From positions 248,001-312,000 of the forward strand of contig MWSW01000012.1 of the NCBI GenBank assembly GCA_002050165.1: a stretch of 64,000 nt of DNA, given 5' to 3'. Made by a program: the position numbers and the translations under genes. The stretch comes from Candidatus Tepidiaquacellales bacterium OLB4/UTCHB1 (GTDB lineage Bacteria; Bacteroidota; Ignavibacteria; Tepidaquicellales; Tepidaquicellaceae). The notes below the pieces were generated by a model. That model was given only the letters and a program-made list of their open reading frames with translations, had not been told where the DNA came from and searched no databases. Of the stretch, positions 18,783 through 30,150 are shown in pieces; position 1 is the stretch's first letter; every line of letters begins with the position of its first letter.

Positions 18783-19427
18783 ATGTTAAAAGAAAATTAT
18801 TTCAACAGAGATAACTCGATAGAAAAAATCAAACTCTGGCAAACAGAATTTTCAGGTTTTTCCAAAAAGTTTAAAAAATTTTCTGTCATAGATTCAGCGC
18901 TGATCGTAATTGATATGCAAAACTTTTTTCTCGATGAAAAATCACACGCGTTTGTCCCCTCTTCAGAGATTATCGTCAACCATATTAATCGGCTCATTTC
19001 GTTTTACGATAAAAAGAATTTACCTGTAATTTTCACTTACTTCGCAGTTGCACCCGGTGATGATGATCCTATACTGCGCCGGTGGGGTAATAGTGTCAGC
19101 GAGAATTCGTACAACAGCATAATTCCCGAATCAGTCCTTCGAAATTCAAATCATAAAGTCATCCGGAAAAATACATACGATTCATTTTACCGAACCAATC
19201 TTGAAGAAGCGCTCAATGCTTTGAACGTAAAACAATTGGTAATTACCGGTGTGCTGACAAATCTATGCTGTGAAACAACTGCTCGTTCCGCATTTGTCCG
19301 CAATTTCGATGTATTCATTGGGATTGACTGTACTGCTGCATTCAATGAGGAAATGCACGTTGCCAGTTTGAGAAATCTGATGTATGGGTTTGCGTCACCT
19401 GTAACTATAAACGAAATCACCACATGA
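18783..19427 (+). CDS. Isochorismatase-family cysteine hydrolase
   Basis: A 214-residue cysteine hydrolase. The catalytic triad is visible as Asp in ALIVIDMQNFF, Lys in HKVIRKNTYDSF and Cys in GVLTNLCCETTARSA. The family hydrolyses amides or vinyl ethers of small molecules (nicotinamide, isochorismate, N-carbamoyl compounds, ureidoacrylate), with DxN metal binding in some members. An extension of about 35 residues precedes the core. It is the first gene of a three-gene operon; its last 4 bases overlap the flavoprotein-radical SAM fusion gene. The substrate is unknown, and the neighbours point to a small-molecule modification or detoxification pathway and not to siderophore synthesis. Confidence 0.85.
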   Translation: MLKENYFNRDNSIEKIKLWQTEFSGFSKKFKKFSVIDSALIVIDMQNFFLDEKSHAFVPSSEIIVNHINRLISFYDKKNLPVIFTYFAVAPGDDDPILRRWGNSVSENSYNSIIPESVLRNSNHKVIRKNTYDSFYRTNLEEALNALNVKQLVITGVLTNLCCETTARSAFVRNFDVFIGIDCTAAFNEEMHVASLRNLMYGFASPVTINEITT

Positions 19428-21169
19428 TATATGACTGTATAATAATCGGCGCAGGTCCGGCAGGGTTAATTGCATCAGTTCAACTGAAGCGGGATAACTT
19501 TAATGTCATGTTGATTGAAAAAAACGCAATTGGCGGATTGTTAAAGAACTCTAACCTGGTTGAAAACTATCTGGGTTTTCCGAACGGAATTACCGGGACT
19601 GAACTTGTCAAAGTTTTTAAAAACCAACTCCGGTCATCCGGCTTGAATCCGATACATGCTGAAGTAAAAAAAATTTCCAGCACCGGAAATATTTACTCCG
19701 TTGTTACTGAAGTTAAATCTTATAAATCGTATGCAGTATTGATTGCTTCCGGAACTATGCCTAAAATGTTATCGGTAAAAGGAGAAGCGGAACTTATCGG
19801 TAAAAAAGTGTTCTACGAAATTGCATCTTTGCCGGAAACTTTAAACTGTACATCGGTTTTAGTTATCGGCGGAGGTGATGTAGCATTTGACTATGCACTG
19901 AATTTAAAATCAAGAGGTTACAATCCATTCATTGTAATGAGGCATCAACCGAAGTGCCTCGGAGTTTTGCAGAAGCGGGCAGCAGCAGAGAGTATTCCAT
20001 ACTTGATAAATCAAAATATAATTGAAATCACAGAATCAGGGGATGCTGTCTTTACTATCTGCGAAGGTATTACATTTAAATCTGAATTAATTTTGGTTGC
20101 TGTCGGAAGAGACCCGGTTCTCCCTGAAATAAATGAAGCATCAAGTAAAGGTATTTTCTATGCCGGTGATGTAATAAATGCCGATTACCGGCAGGTACAT
20201 ATTGCAACCGGAGATGGTTTAAAAGCTGCAATGAAGATTTCAAAATTTTTAAATCAAAAAATGAAAATCGTAAAAGAAATAGGAAACGAAAAACTCGCAA
20301 AAGTTTTCATCGGTAACATTCGAGGCAGAAATGTCGAATTTGCTGAATCAATCCAACCTCCACTGCCAAGGAACGAGAAATGGGTAATTACTATATCCTG
20401 CTTGTTCGGCTGTCCGGTCAAGTGCCTGATGTGTGACGCTGGTCAGGAATATTGCGGGAAGCTTGATTTGGACGATATGCTTGAACAAATTGACCATGCA
20501 GTAATGAGGTTTTATCCCGACAGAAATATTCAGGTTAAGAAGTTTAAAATCCAATTTGCCCGGATGGGTGAACCTGCTTTCAATCCCGCGGTACTTGACG
20601 TGCTGGAAGAATTGCCCAAACGTTACGTTGCACCCGGATTGATACCCTCAGTTTCAACTATCGGTCCGAAAGTGTCATCTGATTTTTTTGAAAAATTATT
20701 GGACATAAAAAATCGTTTGTATGCGAACGGAAAATTTCAAATGCAATTCTCGATTCACACTTCAGATGTTCAAAAGCGTGACACATTAATGCCGATTAAG
20801 AAAATGAGCTTTCCCGAAATTGCTGAGTTCGGGGAGAGATTCTTTAATCCCGGCGACAGAAAAATTACCCTCAATTTCATTGTCATGAAAGGTTACCCGA
20901 TTGAACCCGCAATCCTGCGAAGCATATTTCAACCTGAAGTTTTTATAATAAAGCTCACACCGTTGAATCCAACAATTAACGCTCGGAATAATTCTCTTGA
21001 AACCGAACTTGATCCGGATAATAAATCCACAGTCTCGTCGCTCGTTGATAAATTCAGATTTTTCGGGTTCGATACGCTCGTCAGCATCGGCGATACCGGT
21101 GAAAATGAGATAGGTAGCAATTGCGGACAATATGTGTCAGTATTGAAAAGTACTCAATATCAAAATTGA
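19424..21169 (+). CDS. Fusion of a TrxR-like flavoprotein and an RlmN/Cfr-like radical SAM domain
   Basis: A 581-residue two-domain protein. Residues 1-280 are a thioredoxin-reductase-type flavoprotein: FAD motif IIGAGPAGLIAS, NAD(P) motif VLVIGGGDVAFDYAL and the closing GIFYAGDVINADYRQVHIA. The redox-active CxxC is absent; the expected place reads FYEIASLPE, so it resembles ferredoxin/flavodoxin reductases of this fold. Residues 320-581 are a radical SAM domain with C330-x3-C334-x2-C337, RMGEPAFNP, SVSTIGP, FSIHTSDVQKRDTLMPIKK and a C-terminal SNCGQY. These match RlmN/Cfr landmarks, including the methyl-carrying Cys (C567 here). The RlmN N-terminal RNA-binding domain is missing. The flavin domain probably feeds electrons to the cluster. 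The substrate is unknown. Confidence 0.85.
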   Translation: MIYDCIIIGAGPAGLIASVQLKRDNFNVMLIEKNAIGGLLKNSNLVENYLGFPNGITGTELVKVFKNQLRSSGLNPIHAEVKKISSTGNIYSVVTEVKSYKSYAVLIASGTMPKMLSVKGEAELIGKKVFYEIASLPETLNCTSVLVIGGGDVAFDYALNLKSRGYNPFIVMRHQPKCLGVLQKRAAAESIPYLINQNIIEITESGDAVFTICEGITFKSELILVAVGRDPVLPEINEASSKGIFYAGDVINADYRQVHIATGDGLKAAMKISKFLNQKMKIVKEIGNEKLAKVFIGNIRGRNVEFAESIQPPLPRNEKWVITISCLFGCPVKCLMCDAGQEYCGKLDLDDMLEQIDHAVMRFYPDRNIQVKKFKIQFARMGEPAFNPAVLDVLEELPKRYVAPGLIPSVSTIGPKVSSDFFEKLLDIKNRLYANGKFQMQFSIHTSDVQKRDTLMPIKKMSFPEIAEFGERFFNPGDRKITLNFIVMKGYPIEPAILRSIFQPEVFIIKLTPLNPTINARNNSLETELDPDNKSTVSSLVDKFRFFGFDTLVSIGDTGENEIGSNCGQYVSVLKSTQYQN

Positions 21170-21177
21170 ATAAAAAT

Positions 21178-21570
21178 ATGAACAACTTACAATTCGAAAT
21201 AATACTTTATGTTTCTGACCAAAGTCGGAGCGCAAAATTTTACTCTGCTATTTTAAGAAAAGGACCATCCCTTGATGTCCCCGGGATGACGGAATTCATG
21301 CTAACCGATAAGGTGCGATTAGGTTTAATGCCTAATTCGGGAATTGTTAAGATTCTAAAAGATAAAACACCGCATCCTGCAAAGGGAAATGGAATTCCCA
21401 GATGTGAACTTTACGTAATCTCAGACAACCCGCACGATGATTTGATGAATGCGGTCAATAATGGCGCAATTGTTGTAAGTGAAGTTGGCTACCGCGATTG
21501 GGGTGACTACGTTGGGTACGTTGCCGACCCGGATGGTCACATTATTGCATTTGCAAAATCCGCAACCTGA
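21178..21570 (+). CDS. VOC-superfamily (glyoxalase/bleomycin-resistance-like) protein
   Basis: A 130-residue single-module VOC protein. Paired beta-alpha-beta-beta-beta units are seen in FEIILYVSDQSRSAKFYSAIL and GYVADPDGHIIAFAKSA, with the C-terminal PDGH...AF motif typical of metal-dependent glyoxalases and antibiotic-binding proteins. An in-frame start at 21121 lies inside the upstream gene; the ATG at 21178, 8 bp after the upstream stop, is preferred. As the third gene of the cysteine hydrolase-radical SAM operon it may bind or isomerise the small molecule on which that operon acts. The specific reaction is not predictable. Confidence 0.78.
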   Translation: MNNLQFEIILYVSDQSRSAKFYSAILRKGPSLDVPGMTEFMLTDKVRLGLMPNSGIVKILKDKTPHPAKGNGIPRCELYVISDNPHDDLMNAVNNGAIVVSEVGYRDWGDYVGYVADPDGHIIAFAKSAT

Positions 21571-21991: not shown

Positions 21992-23047
21992 ATGTACCGG
22001 TTAGTAAAAACACTCAACAGGCAAGCATTAGTAAATGCAACTGTATCAATTTTTGTTGTTATTGCCATTGTAATTGCGGGTTCGCGGAATCTTCAGAACT
22101 TCGATGCCGCGCTCGTAGCTTACCTATTCGGAACAGTCTTCGCGGTTTTTGGAATTGCTTATCGCTATTCAGTCTGGTTACAACGTCCGCCAACCCGGTT
22201 ATATTGGTATAGAAGTTGGCAATTCCTGTTTAGTAAAAATTTCATCCCTTACGCACTCCGGTCTTTAAAATTATTTTTGCGAAATATTTTACTTCAACGT
22301 TTTATTTATCCCAGAGGGAAGCTCAGGTGGTTTGGTCACCTCATGCTTGCTGTTGGTTGTGTTTTAGCATTTGCAATTACGATTCCTCTCACTTTCGGAT
22401 GGATTCATTTCACACTCGATCCGAATTCAATCTCAACCTATAACGCTCACTTTTTTGGTTTTGTCGTTACAAGTTTTGAGCTCGGTACACCGATTGCAGT
22501 AATAACCTTTCACGCATTGGTCTGGTGCTCTGTCATTGTTACAATAGGTGCTGTCATCATGCTGAGAAGAAGACTTACAGATGGTGGCCTGATTGCAACC
22601 CAAACTTTTGAAGGTGATTGGTTACCGTTGTTTTTGCTAATAGCAATTTCAGTTACAGGAATCGGAATTACTTACGACTATACTTTCCTGCAAGGTAGAA
22701 CGCACCAATTCATGTCTGTAACACATGCAATAACTGTAATACTGTTCCTTATTTGGTTACCTTTTGGAAAATTCTTTCACATTTTTCAACGATTGGCACA
22801 ACTTGGCGCAAATATTTACAAAGTCGAAGGCATGAAACGGGGAATGGCTGTATGTCCTCATACAAAAGAGGAATTTGCGTCAATTACTCACATTGAAGAT
22901 TTAAAAAACGTATCGAAAAAGCTCGGTTTCGATTTTTCCTTAAAAAACGGTGGAAGTCATCTTGACCTATCACCTGAGGGAAAGAGGTCTGCTCTTGCCA
23001 AAGCGCATTACAAGGCAAGAAAAGAATCGGGCAAATTTTTCGGTTAA
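21992..23047 (+). CDS. b-type cytochrome-like membrane subunit (NarI/HdrE-like)
   Basis: A 351-residue protein with six or seven predicted helices. Histidines lie at helix ends that could ligate heme: [64 protein letters not shown]. The THQ...H...FHI arrangement resembles the nitrate-reductase gamma/heterodisulfide-reductase E group that oxidises quinol. A soluble tail of about 80 residues (from [14 protein letters not shown]) is predicted on the cytoplasmic side. It opens the operon for the adjacent molybdoenzyme, ferredoxin and Rieske genes and is probably their membrane quinone-interacting subunit. Heme binding is inferred only from His placement. Confidence 0.65.
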
Positions 23048-23063
23048 TTTAATTAATTTTTTA

Positions 23064-25280
23064 ATGGCAAAATTACCTGTATCTGTAGATAAAATAATTG
23101 AACAATTCGGACCGCACAAATCGTACACACCAAAAGAGGGATTTGAGGGTAATTTTGAACCGGATAAAATTGTTAAAACGCACTGCTGCTTTTGCGGAAT
23201 GCAATGTGGCATTCAGCTAAAAGTTAAGGATAATAAAGTTACAGGTTTTGAACCGTGGATGGAATTTCCATTTAACGAAGGTCGCCTCTGCCCGAAGGGT
23301 GTACAGAGATATTTACAGAATAATCACCCCGACCGACTATTGAATCCCTTGAAGCGTGTTGAGGGAGTTGGATTTCTTCCCATTGAATGGGACGATGCAA
23401 TGGAAAAAACTGTAAGCGAAATCAAGAGAATACAGAACGAATACGGTAATAATGCATTCGGTATGTTGTCAGGTGTTTCACTTACCAATGAGAAGAGTTA
23501 CATGATTGGAAAGTTTGCCCGAGTTGCATTAAAAACTGCCAATCTCGATTACAACGGCAGGCTTTGCATGGTAAGCGCAGGCGCAGGTAACAAGAAAGCA
23601 TTTGGTATAGACAGAATTTCAAACAGTTGGAGCGACCTTGAACACGCTGAAGTAATTTTAATCGCAGGATCAAATGTGAGCGAAACATTCCCTACACTTA
23701 CTCATTACATTTGGCAGGCGCGGGATAACGGTGCGCGGCTTATAATTGTAGACCCGAGGATAACACCGATTGCCCGCACGGCTGATCTTCACTTGCCCGT
23801 ATTACCCGGTACTGATTCAGCGCTCTTCGGAGCTATCCTGAAAATCCTTGTTGACAATAATTGGCTGGATAAAGAATTCATACAAAATCACACCAGCGGC
23901 TTTAACGAAGCTGTAAATGCCGTAAAGGATTACACTCTGGACTGGGCTGAAAAGGTTACAGGCGTAAAAGCGGAGAAAATTCAGAAAGCTGCCGAATGGT
24001 GGGGAAAAGCAAAAACCAGTTTCCTGCTCCATGCGAGGGGAATTGAGCATCACACAAAAGGAGTTGATAATGTCCTGAGTTGCATTAATATCGTGCTGGC
24101 TACCGGCAGGATTGGAAAACCATATTGCGGATATGGAACAATAACGGGGCAAGGTAACGGGCAGGGGGGAAGGGAGCACGGACATAAATGTGACCAATTA
24201 CCCGGGAACCGTGACATTACAAATCCGGAACACAGGAAATTCATTTCAGAAATTTGGGGAATAGATGAAAAGGATTTACCCGGAAAAGGACTGACAGCTT
24301 ATGAACTTATAGAAGCAATTCACCGCGGTGAGGTTAAAGGTCTCATCTCAATATGCTTTAATCCGTTAATTTCGCTACCGAATAACAGCTTCGTTCGAGA
24401 AGCATTAGAGAAACTTGAGTTCTACGTTTCAATTGATTTCTTCCTGAACGAAACAGCCAGACATGCGGATATAATACTTGCGGGTTCACTTCACGAAGAG
24501 GAAGAAGGGACTGTAACAACTGCCGAAGGCAGAGTCGTTAAGATAAACGAAGCTGTTACTCCGCCGGGGAATGCCAGAAGAGATAAAGATATAATAATGG
24601 AACTCGCACGACGACTTGGTGCAGGGGATAAATTTAATTATGAAAATAGTGAAGCAATTTTTAATGAATTGAGGATAGCATCGAAAGGTGGTACGGCGGA
24701 TTACTTTGGAATTACTTACCAGCGAATTGAAGAAAACATGGGTGTCTTCTGGCCATGTCCTTCGCTTGATCATCCCGGGACACCACGTTTGTGGGAAGAT
24801 AAAAAATTTGCTACCAATGACGGGAAAGCACACTTTAATCCTGTACCGTTCAGAGAACCATCTGAAGTAACTGACAATGAATATCCAGTTGTGCTCACTA
24901 CCGGAAGAGTTGTATCACAATATCTAAGCGGATCACAAACGAGGAGAATAGGTAAATTAGTTGATCAATATCCGCAACCATTACTCGAGATTCACCCTGA
25001 ACTTGCATCTAAGTACGGAATTAAAGACGGTGATCTGATCACAGTGGCAACCCGTCGTGGAGAGGCAAACTTTCCTGCACAACTTGTTGAAACTATCAGA
25101 AAGGATACGGTTTTTATTCCTTACCATTGGGGTGGAAAACAATCTGCAAATCAACTTACTATCGGGACTTTGGATCCTGTTTCCAAAATCCCTGAATTTA
25201 AAGTCTGCGCTTGCCGGCTCGTTCATACGGGTATTAAGGCATCAGACAAATTGAAAGAAACAGCTTATCAAAGTTATTAA
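23064..25280 (+). CDS. Nas/Nap-like molybdopterin oxidoreductase (bis-MGD), putative nitrate reductase
   Basis: A 738-residue DMSO-reductase-family catalytic subunit. An N-terminal [4Fe-4S] site is C41-x2-C44-x3-C48...C76 ([16 protein letters not shown]). The segment [20 protein letters not shown] places a Cys as likely Mo ligand, as in assimilatory (NasA/NarB) and periplasmic (NapA) nitrate reductases and some formate dehydrogenases. The C-terminal MGD-binding domain includes [19 protein letters not shown] and [15 protein letters not shown]. No Tat signal is present, so it is probably cytoplasmic. A longer in-frame start (22950) overlaps the membrane gene and is rejected in favour of ATG 23064. 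No nitrite reductase is in the window, so assimilation is unproven; other substrates remain possible. Confidence 0.85.
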
Positions 25281-25295
25281 TTTTGAATAAAGAAT

Positions 25296-25865
25296 ATGGC
25301 AGTTAGTGAATACAATCAGGAGATGGAATTTTTCGTTGACATGCAGCGGTGCATTGGATGTCACGCATGTGAAATGGCTTGCGCCGAATGTGAAACAAAC
25401 GGGCAGGAAAGTATGATTCACGTTCATTACATTGACAGGGCAGTTTCAGTTCAGACAACGGTTCAGGTCTGCATGCATTGCGACGAACCCGCATGTGCAA
25501 CAGTTTGTCCGGCAGATGCTATAACCAAGGATAACTTCGGTGTCGTTCATTCTGCAAATACTTCACGTTGTATCGGTTGTTCAAATTGTGTGCTGGCGTG
25601 TCCGTTCGGTGTACCGATTAAATTTGAAGAGAGTGAACTAATGATGAAGTGCAATATGTGTTACGACCGGACAAGTGCCGGTAAAAAACCAATGTGTGCA
25701 ACCGTTTGTCCTAGTCAGGCGCTATATTACGGTACCCGTGAAGAAATAAGAAAGCGAAGACCCGAGAGCGTACCGGTAAACACATTTAAGTTCGGTGAAC
25801 TTGAAGTAAAGACTAAGGTAAAAATCATGATGCCAAAAGGCGCTACAAAAATAATCGTGGATTAA
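25296..25865 (+). CDS. Four-cluster ferredoxin subunit (DmsB/NrfC-like)
   Basis: A 189-residue iron-sulfur protein with four cysteine groups: [45 protein letters not shown] and CNMC...CATVCP. This is the layout of electron-transfer subunits of DMSO-reductase-family complexes, carrying four [4Fe-4S] clusters. It has no signal peptide. It lies 15 bp after the molybdoenzyme and 5 bp before the Rieske gene, and should transfer electrons between the membrane subunit and the molybdoenzyme. Confidence 0.88.
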
Positions 25866-25870
25866 AACGA

Positions 25871-26386
25871 ATGAAAGAAAAAAATCAGGAAATATTTTCA
25901 GAAACGTGGAAGGATGACTTCCCTATTCAACAGCAGGAGGCAGTTCATGTTTCAAGGCGGGAATTTGCAAAATTTCTCGGCCTGCTTTCAGGTACACTCG
26001 CATTGGGGAACGCCGGAATAATCATTAAGTCAATCCTATTTCCCTCACAAAAACTGAAAGGTGAACATTTCGTTTGTAATCAAAACGAGGTTCCGGCTGG
26101 CGGCATGAAACAATTTGAACTTCAATTGGATAAAACAATTCCTTATATTCTAATTCATCTCAAAGATGGTCAATGGCGGGCTTTTGAACAAAAATGTACG
26201 CACTTATCCTGTGCCGTTAGATACGTCCCTGAAATGGATAAAATACAATGCCCTTGTCACAATGGATATTTCGATGCCCGTTCAGGTGTAGTTTTGCAAG
26301 GACCACCGCCCAGACCACTGCCGAGACTCGATGTAATTCTTAAAGATGGAAAAGTGTTTGTCGCTGAAATGAAAAATAAAACTTAA
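25871..26386 (+). CDS. Tat-exported Rieske [2Fe-2S] protein
   Basis: A 171-residue protein. Residues 28-36 carry a twin-arginine motif (SRREFAKFL) followed by a hydrophobic segment, so the protein should be Tat-exported and anchored with its Rieske domain outside. The cluster-binding boxes are CTHLSC (about residue 109) and CPCHNGYFD, with the downstream GPPPRPLPRLDV typical of Rieske domains. A Rieske protein in a Nas-like molybdoenzyme operon is unusual; it may form a quinol-oxidising unit with the b-type membrane subunit. The membrane-outside location contrasts with the signal-less molybdoenzyme and ferredoxin, implying that electrons cross the membrane through the b-type subunit, if these form one complex. 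Confidence 0.88.
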   Translation: MKEKNQEIFSETWKDDFPIQQQEAVHVSRREFAKFLGLLSGTLALGNAGIIIKSILFPSQKLKGEHFVCNQNEVPAGGMKQFELQLDKTIPYILIHLKDGQWRAFEQKCTHLSCAVRYVPEMDKIQCPCHNGYFDARSGVVLQGPPPRPLPRLDVILKDGKVFVAEMKNKT

Positions 26387-26397
26387 GCATATTAATC

Positions 26398-26655
26398 GTG
26401 AGCGATTTCAGAGAATCTCAGAATAAAGCACATCCGAATAAAACGAACACGTTAATGACGGGTATTATCCTGTTACTGATATTTATCATAAGTATTCAGA
26501 TTTGGTTTTTGTATAGTGCATTGAACAATGCTTTGGAGAGAAACCTTGATATTGCAATCGCTACATTTCTTGGTTCATTTGTACTGGCATTAGTATCCTT
26601 CTGGTTAATAAGGTATCTGCCTGATCCGCGGGAAGGTAAAATTAAACGAAAGTAA
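26398..26655 (+). CDS. Small two-helix membrane protein (DUF6755-like)
   Basis: An 85-residue protein starting with GTG. Two transmembrane helices are predicted (TGIILLLIFIISIQIWFLYS and IATFLGSFVLALVSFWLI), followed by a basic tail (DPREGKIKRK). It fits what is remembered of DUF6755, but this was not verified. It lies 11 bp after the Rieske gene and directly abuts moaA, so it is probably a small accessory subunit of the same complex. Confidence 0.6.
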   Translation: MSDFRESQNKAHPNKTNTLMTGIILLLIFIISIQIWFLYSALNNALERNLDIAIATFLGSFVLALVSFWLIRYLPDPREGKIKRK

Positions 26656-27636
26656 ATGATCCTCGACAAATTTGAAAGAGTTCACAATTATCTGAGAATA
26701 TCTTTAACCGACAGCTGCAATTTCCGGTGTAGCTACTGTATGCCGGATGAACAAATTGTAAGCATGAGTTCAGCACAGCTAATGAGCCCGGATGAAATTG
26801 AAAAAATTTCACAGATTTTCATTAACCTCGGTGTGAACAAAATCAGGCTTACTGGTGGCGAGCCGCTTGTCAGAAAAGATTTCGCTGAAATTTCAACCCG
26901 CCTCTCAAAATTAAATACCGATCTGACTATTACAACAAACGGATTTCTTGTGGATAAATATCTGAACATTTTCAAAAGCTCAGGCATACATTCGGTTAAT
27001 GTCAGTCTCGATTCACTTCGCCCTGAAGTTTTCAAAAAGCTAACTAAGCGCGACCACTTTCATAACGTCTGGAATAATATCGCCCTGTTACTTGAAAATG
27101 ATTTCAGAGTAAAAATTAATGTTGTCGCATTGAACGGTATTATCGAGGATGAAATAATTGACTTTATTGCAGAGACAAAATCCAGACCGTTGCACATCAG
27201 GTTCATCGAGTTCATGCCGTTCACCGGCAATAAATGGGAATCGGGGAAAGTGGTAACCGCAGATCAGATGTTGAAAATGGTTACTCCGATTTTTGATGTA
27301 ATTAAGCTGGAAGATGAACCAAACGCCACAGCGAAAAAATATAAAGTACCCGGTTTTGAAGGAACTTTTGCATTTATAACAACCATGAGTAATTTATTTT
27401 GCGGGGATTGCAACCGGCTTAGGTTAACTGCTGACGGGAAGTTAAAAAACTGTCTGTTCGGTAAGGATGAAATTGATCTCTTAGGTGCGTTTCGAAATGG
27501 TGAAGATATTATTCCACTTATACATAAATCAGCATCTATGAAACATCGCGAAGCAGGTGGACAGTTTCCGAAAAGTTTCCACGATACAGAAGCAGATAAA
27601 ATAATTAACCGTAGTATGATAGGTATCGGTGGTTAA
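26656..27636 (+). CDS. moaA: GTP 3',8-cyclase MoaA
   Basis: A 326-residue radical SAM enzyme for the first step of molybdenum-cofactor synthesis, conversion of GTP to 3',8-cH2GTP. The N-terminal SAM cluster motif is CNFRCSYCMP. The C-terminal second cluster shows as FCGDCNRLRLTADGKLKNCLF, and the protein ends in the required Gly-Gly (GIGG). The position of the ATG directly after the preceding stop indicates operon membership. With moaC, D, E and B downstream, the set is complete. Confidence 0.97.
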   Translation: MILDKFERVHNYLRISLTDSCNFRCSYCMPDEQIVSMSSAQLMSPDEIEKISQIFINLGVNKIRLTGGEPLVRKDFAEISTRLSKLNTDLTITTNGFLVDKYLNIFKSSGIHSVNVSLDSLRPEVFKKLTKRDHFHNVWNNIALLLENDFRVKINVVALNGIIEDEIIDFIAETKSRPLHIRFIEFMPFTGNKWESGKVVTADQMLKMVTPIFDVIKLEDEPNATAKKYKVPGFEGTFAFITTMSNLFCGDCNRLRLTADGKLKNCLFGKDEIDLLGAFRNGEDIIPLIHKSASMKHREAGGQFPKSFHDTEADKIINRSMIGIGG

Positions 27637-27646
27637 ATCTAAATTG

Positions 27647-28822
27647 ATGATCTCCGTTAATCACGCCAAAAAATTAATTTCAGAGAGAACATCACAATCG
27701 CAACCGGTGGATATTCCGATACAAAACGCTACCGGATTTATTACTGCCCGTGATGTAACATCTCCGATCGACGTTCCCCCTTTTGATAATTCCGCCATGG
27801 ATGGTTATGCAATTAAACTGAACAAGGATAATTACGTTTATCGAATTACACATATTGTACAGGCAGGTGAAACCAGGCATCTTAAGATAGGTGACGGAGA
27901 AGCTGCGAGAGTTTTTACCGGCGCGCCAATCCCAGACGGGGCAGATACAGTCGTGCAGCAGGAACTCTCTGAACGCAATGATGATTTCGTGAAACTGAAC
28001 TTGAGCGAAATAGATAAAGGTGAACACATCAGGTTACGGGGCGCACAATCAAAGTCCGGAACAACTATACTTCAAAAAGGTACATTAATTTCCCCGGGTA
28101 CTGTGGGCTTGTTGGCTTCAGTAGGAATACAGGCTGTATCAGTTTATTCCTCACCTGTGGTTTCTGTCGTTATAACCGGCAATGAACTTACCCCACCAGG
28201 GTCAGAGTTAGATCACGGATTAATTTATGAATCAAACTCCCCCGCCCTCGTTTCATATCTGAAATATCTGGGAGTTCATAACATAAATGTATTTCATGCA
28301 CCGGATGAAAAGGAATGGCTTAAGAAAAAAATTTCTGAATGCCTGGATAACTCCGATATTTTATTACTAACCGGTGGTGTTTCCGTTGGGGATTACGATT
28401 TCGTTCATGAAATACTAAATGAAATCGGTATTGAAAGGCTTTTTCACAAAGTAAAACAACGCCCCGGAAAACCTCTTTATGTCGGAAAGTTAAATTCTAA
28501 ATGGGTATTCGGACTACCCGGAAATCCTGCCTCAGTTATCAGTTGTTTTAATCAATACGTGAAACCCTGCATTAAAGCAAATATGGGGTTCACCCGTGTT
28601 TGGGAACCGGATGCACGTTTACCTCTCGAAAACAGATATACAAAAAAACCTGGACTCACATTTTTCCTCAAAGCAAGCACAGTAAACGATAAGATTGTCG
28701 TTCCGGATGGGCAACAATCATTTAATATGTTACCATTCGGGGCAGCCAACGGGCTTGCTGAAATTCCGGAAGAGATTGAAATGGTAGAACCAGGGTCGAT
28801 TGTAAATTTTTATAAATGGTAA
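27647..28822 (+). CDS. moeA: Molybdopterin molybdenumtransferase MoeA
   Basis: A 391-residue protein with the full MoeA layout: N-terminal MISVNHAKKLI, SAMDGYAI, DTVVQQE, the substrate domain ending in YESNSPALVSYL, LLTGGVSVGDYDFV and PGNPASVISCF. It inserts molybdate into adenylylated molybdopterin. An upstream GTG at 27629 in the same frame overlaps moaA by 8 bp; the ATG at 27647 is preferred because MoeA proteins usually begin at the MISV-type segment. Located between moaA and the TSUP permease gene. Confidence 0.95.
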   Translation: MISVNHAKKLISERTSQSQPVDIPIQNATGFITARDVTSPIDVPPFDNSAMDGYAIKLNKDNYVYRITHIVQAGETRHLKIGDGEAARVFTGAPIPDGADTVVQQELSERNDDFVKLNLSEIDKGEHIRLRGAQSKSGTTILQKGTLISPGTVGLLASVGIQAVSVYSSPVVSVVITGNELTPPGSELDHGLIYESNSPALVSYLKYLGVHNINVFHAPDEKEWLKKKISECLDNSDILLLTGGVSVGDYDFVHEILNEIGIERLFHKVKQRPGKPLYVGKLNSKWVFGLPGNPASVISCFNQYVKPCIKANMGFTRVWEPDARLPLENRYTKKPGLTFFLKASTVNDKIVVPDGQQSFNMLPFGAANGLAEIPEEIEMVEPGSIVNFYKW

Positions 28823-28825
28823 AAG

Positions 28826-29563
28826 TTGATTGAATACGCTTTCTATATCCTCTTATTTCTGATGCCGGTGGCTGCATTCTTTTATGCCTCTGTTGGTCAT
28901 GGCGGAGCAAGCAGTTACCTGATGCTGCTCACACTTTTTAATTTCGCCCCTGAACAGATACGACCAACTGCTTTGATGTTAAATATTGTGGTTTCATTCA
29001 TTGCATTCGCATCCTACCGGCGGACATGTGAATTCAAAAAAGATATTTTTATTCCTCTTGTTATATTTTCAATTCCTGCTGCATACATTGGCGGGACAAT
29101 CCTCGTAGATGCATATCTATACAAAAAAATTTTAGGAGTACTATTAATTTTCCCTGCGCTGAGATTTCTTAATGTATTTCCCGTGGCTGAAGAAACAGTT
29201 TTAAATAGGAAGTGGTGGATGATTTCAATTATCGGACTTAGCATTGGTTTCGTTTCGGGTTTAATCGGTATCGGGGGCGGTATTATTCTGTCTCCGATAT
29301 TACTTATGGCAGGTTGGGCAAACGTAAAGGAAACAGCCGCATTGAGCGCATTATTCATCTTCCTGAATTCAATCTCAGGATTTATCGGTTCCAATGCAAT
29401 TGATGTAACTATTGACCCTCAACTTTGGATGTTGATGCCATTAACAATAGGTGGCGGCGCTTTAGGTGCATATTTCGGCGCTAATAAATTTAACCCGAAA
29501 GTATTGAAACAATTGTTGGCTGCCGTTCTTATTATTGCTTCAGTAAAATTTCTCATAGGTTGA
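28826..29563 (+). CDS. TSUP (TauE/SafE) family permease
   Basis: A 245-residue polytopic protein, about eight helices, of the TSUP family. The two duplicated motifs are visible as FFYASVGHGGASSYLMLL and GFVSGLIGIGGGIILSPILLMAGW. TSUP members move sulfite, sulfonates, sulfolactate or other small anions. The TTG start at 28826 follows the moeA stop by 3 bp, and the end overlaps mobA by 4 bp, so the gene is embedded in the Moco operon. That setting suggests transport of an anion such as molybdate or nitrite, or of sulfur for the dithiolene, but the sequence does not decide this. No ModABC genes are in the window. Confidence 0.85.
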   Translation: MIEYAFYILLFLMPVAAFFYASVGHGGASSYLMLLTLFNFAPEQIRPTALMLNIVVSFIAFASYRRTCEFKKDIFIPLVIFSIPAAYIGGTILVDAYLYKKILGVLLIFPALRFLNVFPVAEETVLNRKWWMISIIGLSIGFVSGLIGIGGGIILSPILLMAGWANVKETAALSALFIFLNSISGFIGSNAIDVTIDPQLWMLMPLTIGGGALGAYFGANKFNPKVLKQLLAAVLIIASVKFLIG

Positions 29564-30150
29564 TTAAAACATCTGATATAGAAACGTTCATTTTAGCAGG
29601 AGGTAAGAGTAGCCGGATGGGTGACGATAAAGGTATGCTCAGAGTAAACGGAAAACATTTAATAGAGTTTACGATTGAACCTCTCAAAAAATCCGGTTTA
29701 AACCCTAAAATAATTGCAAACAATGAAAGCTATAAAATCTTCGGATTGGAAGTCTTCCCGGATGAAGTGAAAGGTAAAGGTCCGATCGGTGGATTGCTTA
29801 CCTCAATGGTGAATTGTAAGAGAGATCACTTATTACTGATTAGTTGCGATATGCCATTTATTTCAGAAGATTCAGTTGCTTACCTTTTAGCTGAATCAGA
29901 AGATGGGAAAATTTGCGTTTCTTCAGATGGAGAAAAAATAAACCCTCTCTTTGCAATCTATCCGGTTACAATTCTCGGTTTTGTAAACTCACGAATCAAT
30001 GAAAACAAATTAAAAATGACAGAACTGATTTTATCGTCGGATCACAGAGTGATTAATATGTCGGCAATGTTAAAAAATAATCCGTATTTATTTTTGAATA
30101 TTAATACAAGATCAGATTTTGAAAATTTGAGACATTCCCTGAATAAATAA
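29560..30150 (+). CDS. mobA: Molybdenum cofactor guanylyltransferase MobA
   Basis: A 196-residue nucleotidyltransferase. The N-terminal LAGGKSSRMGDDKGML is the GTP-binding motif, and LLISCDMPFISED carries the metal-binding Asp. It converts Mo-MPT to (bis-)MGD, the cofactor of NarG and the Nas-like enzyme in this window. TTG start; 4-bp overlap with the permease gene. The window also holds a MocA-type homologue at 49590-50186, so the two branches of cofactor maturation are separate. Confidence 0.93.
   Translation: MIKTSDIETFILAGGKSSRMGDDKGMLRVNGKHLIEFTIEPLKKSGLNPKIIANNESYKIFGLEVFPDEVKGKGPIGGLLTSMVNCKRDHLLLISCDMPFISEDSVAYLLAESEDGKICVSSDGEKINPLFAIYPVTILGFVNSRINENKLKMTELILSSDHRVINMSAMLKNNPYLFLNINTRSDFENLRHSLNK

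Follow-up and report, generated by a model that had tools for sequence, protein, structure and literature searches.

An isochorismatase-superfamily cysteine hydrolase (ISO), a thioredoxin reductase (TrxR)-type flavoprotein (FLAV) and an RlmN-like radical SAM protein (rSAM) form an uncharacterised three-gene cassette that occurs across many bacterial and archaeal phyla, and searches of the literature and of protein families found no curated family or paper describing it. In the window, as we call the whole 64,000-nucleotide stretch of DNA analysed here, FLAV and rSAM are joined in one gene. We read the cassette as a dedicated three-enzyme system that would apply RlmN-type methyl-cysteine chemistry to a substrate other than rRNA, with FLAV as the likely electron source, a reading of inferred chemistry that we place just short of an even call. 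The features of the window are as follows.

18783..19427, + strand: ISO, a 214-aa cysteine hydrolase of the isochorismatase superfamily, opening the cassette (PF00857, E=5e-39)
18912..19268, + strand: ISO triad codons D44 (18912-18914), K129 (19167-19169) and C162 (19266-19268)
19424..21169, + strand: fused FLAV-rSAM gene, 581 aa
19424..20260, + strand: FLAV (residues 1-279), TrxR-fold FAD/NAD(P)H flavoprotein lacking CxxC
19448..19465, + strand: FAD-binding GAGPAG, residues 9-14 (G9, G11, P12 and G14 invariant)
19868..19891, + strand: NAD(P)H-binding GGGDVAFD, residues 149-156 (G149, G151 and D156 invariant)
20255..20264, + strand: FLAV/rSAM junction CAAAAAATGA, with a six-A run at 20256-20261
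20261..21169, + strand: rSAM (residues 280-581), RlmN-like radical SAM domain that lacks the N-terminal helical part
20336..20338, + strand: E305, on the E. coli RlmN E105 column (invariant in the alignment)
20411..20434, + strand: [4Fe-4S] motif C330-x3-C334-x2-C337 (invariant)
20564..20575, + strand: MGEP motif, residues 381-384 (G382 and P384 invariant, M381 nearly so)
21122..21130, + strand: C567-G-Q, equivalent of the RlmN methyl-carrying Cys355 (C567 invariant; aligned with RlmN CGQ)

Linkage was assessed over 116 loci with distinct rSAM sequences, a phylogenetically uneven sample; since its members were picked for resemblance to rSAM and not for the cassette, gene linkage was not built into it. 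ISO, FLAV and rSAM lay close together on one strand at 89 of the 116 loci (82, plus 6 near a contig edge and the fused window gene), and FLAV was adjacent to or fused with rSAM at 106, five of the ten loci with no adjacent FLAV being at contig edges. The FLAV–rSAM border was an ATGA overlap in 59/116 loci and a TAATG overlap in 5/116. Pairwise distances of the three proteins were correlated over 88 loci (Mantel r 0.75–0.82; permutation maximum 0.11), as expected of a unit inherited together, with shared genome history contributing. Even in a Syntrophaceae genome where ISO–FLAV and rSAM fell on separate contigs, both were present.

A scan found at least 528 encoding stretches in named species genomes, with CPR Peribacteria, Fermentibacteria/Aegiribacteria, Thermoplasmatota, Anaerolineae and many others among the matches listed, and the cassette was found in CPR, Chloroflexota, Fermentibacteria, Thermoplasmatota and other groups, patchily within phyla. 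rSAM occurred in 5/297 genomes of the window's phylum, the window genome included; three of the other four encode separate, abutting FLAV and rSAM beside ISO, and in the fourth (G272) rSAM lies beside an acyl-CoA ligase gene. Under search thresholds that differ between the figures, prevalence was 4/251 genomes in the phylum of an Anaerolineales genome (G305), 40/243 in that of a Thermoplasmata MAG (G302), 5/74 in one CPR order and 17/44 in the window's order. A plasmid search returned TrxR-like matches only.

A first, sequence-only reading of this DNA had recognized FLAV and rSAM as a unit and had missed the third partner, ISO, whose stop overlaps the start of the fused gene (ATGA at 19424-19427). 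ISO belongs to PF00857 (134.6 bits against a gathering score of 27), and its D44, K129 and C162, which correspond to the catalytic triad of the superfamily, are invariant in 33 family members. It shares the PF00857 fold with EntB, PhzD, RutB and BiuH, its profile matching EntB along its length and RutB and BiuH around the catalytic cysteine. The D-K-C triad is accompanied by a vicinal CC, the nicotinamidase-type metal motif is absent, and ISO scores under every NCBIfam cut-off. At one locus (L316, 10861-11223; G900), a HIT-family protein gene overlaps the start of ISO.

The fused open reading frame (19424-21169) begins with ATG and is uninterrupted by stops, and profile and structure matches bore out its proposed make-up of a TrxR-type flavoprotein and a radical SAM domain. 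In profile searches FLAV matched TIGR01292 TrxR (E=8e-45) and Pyr_redox_2 (E=2e-22), and the top match of its predicted structure was TrxR in the FR conformation (TM 0.80). FLAV shares the two-Rossmann FAD/NAD(P)H fold and binding motifs with low-molecular-weight thioredoxin reductase and with TrxR-type ferredoxin-NADP reductases; its sequence is nearer TrxR, yet like the TrxR-type FNRs it has no redox CxxC. Judged as a thioredoxin reductase (TIGR01292), FLAV combines a TrxR fold with the motifs for binding FAD and NAD(P)H and lacks the redox-active CxxC, an absence already remarked on in the window protein that extends to the whole family (CxxC in 0/34 aligned members). An AF2 model of the whole fused protein reached a pTM of 0.68, leaving the arrangement of the FLAV and rSAM domains uncertain.

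The rSAM half matched the Radical_SAM Pfam weakly (5e-4) and Cfr/RlmN models at 2e-7 to 9e-7, far under the model cut-offs, and its PDB sequence matches were Cfr and RlmN. Its predicted structure (pLDDT 90, pTM 0.88) retrieved RlmN at E~1e-11 in a fold search, with the next fold at 4e-4. The roles of E105, C118 and C355 in RlmN have been described, C355 being the methyl-carrying cysteine (PMC9692996). When the family was aligned with eleven RlmN sequences, E305 fell on the E105 column and C567 on the C355 column, and the family's only invariant cysteines were the three cluster ligands and C567. The landmarks named beforehand (C330, C334, C337, MGEP, MPI and C567 in CGQ) were all correctly placed. 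So was the remark that C118 has no exact counterpart: in this alignment, no rSAM family member has a cysteine at the C118 column, and C326, which lies off that column, is a cysteine in 20% of rows and is not a family feature. The RNA-binding domain is missing as supposed, rSAM starting with the beta strands that precede the cluster motif. That the reductase had replaced the RNA-recognition region by fusion did not hold up, since rSAM normally stands alone as a protein of some 300-330 aa, with FLAV encoded by its own gene directly beside it in nearly all loci.

Class A radical methylases, the RlmN/Cfr class, have two conserved cysteines and RNA adenosines as substrates (PMC5943407), and their chemistry normally requires C118 (PMC9692996). 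rSAM and RlmN/Cfr have in common the fold, CxxxCxxC, MGEP, the E105-column glutamate, the C-terminal CGQ cysteine and the order of these motifs, whereas rSAM shows only 15-18% identity to them in structural alignments, lacks the N-terminal helical domain and a C118 equivalent, and is partnered with FLAV and ISO. Held against the class definition, rSAM therefore has the radical SAM fold with CxxxCxxC, RlmN as its nearest fold, and the C355-type cysteine, but neither the second essential cysteine (C118/C105) nor the N-terminal helical RNA-binding domain; for want of C118 it falls outside class A as that class is defined. Against the RlmN model TIGR00048, whose curated cut-off is 290 bits, the family scores 20-60 bits and the window rSAM 29. 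A separate RlmN is encoded in 11 of the 13 bacterial genomes checked that carry rSAM, ten of them over the cut-off and that of the window genome just under it (282.7 bits), indicating that the job of rSAM is not that of RlmN; for the window rSAM, an RlmN function was rejected on this ground. Among the rSAM carriers checked, no separate RlmN was found in G304, the CPR genome G297 or three archaeal genomes. rSAM probably works like a class A methylase in the first half-reaction and its chemistry is probably akin to that of RlmN but directed at a target other than ribosomal RNA.

In a tree, the rSAM family (support 85/85), its phage sister family phrog_24834 (100/99) and RlmN (100/100) formed three separate groups, although the program warned of possible long-branch attraction between the phage and RlmN branches. 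Peribacteria sit beside a group made up of the window, L004 and the Ignavibacteriae record L038. phrog_24834, the sister clade of rSAM (support 100), conserves the C-terminal cysteine (in the C567 column in 94% of phage relatives) and differs from rSAM in having CGN in place of CGQ, an N-terminal extension and no FLAV; one weak ISO-like match was found nearby in 80 loci. By eye, phage members at the near-identical loci L119 and L157 and at L192 lie near nicotinate phosphoribosyltransferase-like and NAD synthetase-like genes, with a nicotinamidase-like gene also near at L119/L157.

The fusion itself is rare and was rejected as the key feature of the system. FLAV and rSAM are fused at 2 of the 116 distinct loci: the window and L056, a Thermoplasmatota contig with its own linker of about 28 residues. 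At five further loci (L004, L005, L092, L094 and L095), a single TAA separates FLAV from rSAM in one frame; in the whole-protein alignment, rows of unfused genes were read through such a single in-frame stop where the two share a frame. In the window junction CAAAAAATGA, the rSAM ATG (20261-20263) overlaps an out-of-frame TGA (20262-20264), so the ATGA motif of 59 relatives is retained one base out of frame with FLAV at the six-A run. Because the fused frame hangs on that run, a recent mutation or an assembly error is possible, and the fusion may be old, recent or an artefact of assembly. That it is such an error or a very recent single event, the cell making, or until recently having made, two proteins like its relatives, is a serious possibility that we lean only mildly against: the genes are separate in the nearest relatives, and the linker-bearing fusion at L056 speaks on the other side. 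This account concerns the fusion only and is compatible with the other explanations considered here.

In the preferred reading, FLAV would take a hydride from NAD(P)H onto its FAD and, having no dithiol, supply the [4Fe-4S] cluster in rSAM, its partner, with electrons one at a time. A methyl group from a first SAM would be moved to C567, with E305 activating the thiol; cleavage of a second SAM would then yield a Cys-CH2 radical that adds to an electrophilic sp2 carbon of the substrate. No RNA-binding domain would hold this substrate, which would most likely be a small heteroaromatic or cofactor-like molecule, and the adduct would have to be resolved without a C118 thiol, by another base or with the help of FLAV. 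To judge from its fold, ISO might act before or after the rSAM step by hydrolysing a bond of the amide, ureido or enol-ether type. On sequence grounds, FLAV is plausible as the dedicated reductase of rSAM, given that the two genes stay adjacent and were fused independently, with a linker, at L056; a small-molecule or protein substrate is a possibility. We hold with more doubt the fuller proposal of a widespread, undescribed system in which an RlmN-related methyl-cysteine enzyme without the resolving cysteine or RNA-binding domain is powered by a dedicated NAD(P)H flavoprotein and acts on a small molecule that the hydrolase also processes. If true, it would add a class to the radical SAM methylases or C1-inserting enzymes and would imply an undescribed metabolite in bacteria and archaea. 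In the reviews consulted, the class A radical methylases are RlmN and Cfr only, whose targets are adenosines in RNA; with a relative conserved in many phyla, small-genome CPR included, and tied at most of its loci to a flavoprotein and a hydrolase, methyl-cysteine radical chemistry would gain a new use. It would raise the question of how the crosslink resolves without C118, and it points to a new metabolite or modification that can be searched for directly.

FLAV could instead be a biosynthetic oxidoreductase that transfers hydride to a pathway intermediate and is not the donor to rSAM, the three enzymes then catalysing successive steps on one small molecule. We consider this unlikely, though loss of the dithiol from FLAV would suit it, as would the linkage of ISO, which is about as tight as that of FLAV. 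It also draws on genus g3 of the window's order, where rSAM was matched in 13/13 sampled genomes and its partners were examined in ten. Cassette-type FLAV and ISO are present in G881 and G883; the other eight (G272, G880, G882, G884, G887, G888, G889 and G890), 94-100% complete, gave no ISO match and only TrxR-grade FLAV matches (at most 194 bits, against at least 295 bits for cassette FLAV in the same search). Since rSAM is kept without a cassette-type FLAV in these eight genomes, the reductase is not indispensable there, a point against the preferred reading. In most of them an acyl-CoA ligase gene directly precedes rSAM, and the order ligase-ISO-FLAV-rSAM in G881 suggests an earlier layout of this kind from which ISO and FLAV have since disappeared; the role of rSAM without its partners has possibly changed. 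Against the oxidoreductase role, FLAV and rSAM are specifically the pair that is fused (twice) and most often overlapping, and rSAM enzymes need a reductant anyway. At ten loci of one genus (L195, L303, L304, L306, L308, L310-L313 and L315), where rSAM follows an acyl-CoA ligase and most have lost ISO and FLAV, 4-hydroxyphenylpyruvate dioxygenase and homogentisate-dioxygenase-like genes also lie near rSAM.

RNA modification, in which the target would be a base in tRNA or rRNA and FLAV or ISO would provide the RNA contact of the missing domain, is improbable: a known RNA-binding domain is absent from all three proteins, and isochorismatase-family hydrolases are not known to act as RNA enzymes. 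The RlmN ancestry and the conserved glutamate column speak for it. By eye, some Thermoplasmatota loci adjoin translation or RNA-modification genes (for example a Trm9-like methyltransferase and KsgA) and the surroundings of some phage relatives include RtcB-, Thg1- and RNA-ligase-like genes, but translation genes are common neighbours in archaea.

No conserved fourth neighbour naming a substrate was found across the 116 loci. Minority neighbours comprised CooC-like ATPases (8 loci), a DUF3786-type protein (5), MetF-/methyltransferase-like proteins (4), and dihydropteroate-synthase-like and PurN-like proteins (3 each); they point, not decisively, to C1/folate or Wood-Ljungdahl metabolism in a subset. 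The DUF3786-type protein adjoins the cassette at L063, L081, L083, L095 and L108, upstream of ISO in four of the five, often with CooC-like ATPases downstream. At L064, L084 and L100, in archaeal MAGs, a PurN-like formyltransferase lies near or directly behind rSAM, with corrinoid-protein-activator-like and methyltransferase-like genes also near. A literature search on 2-methyladenine for cobamides as a substrate idea gave no relevant result, and a defence system was rejected, PADLOC returning nothing of note. Directly downstream of the fused gene, the window encodes a small glyoxalase-fold protein (21178-21570) that is not conserved with the cassette elsewhere. Farther downstream and outside the cassette (21992-30150), inspection by eye identified molybdopterin oxidoreductase-, ferredoxin- and Rieske-type-like genes together with MoaA-, MoeA- and MobA-like genes.
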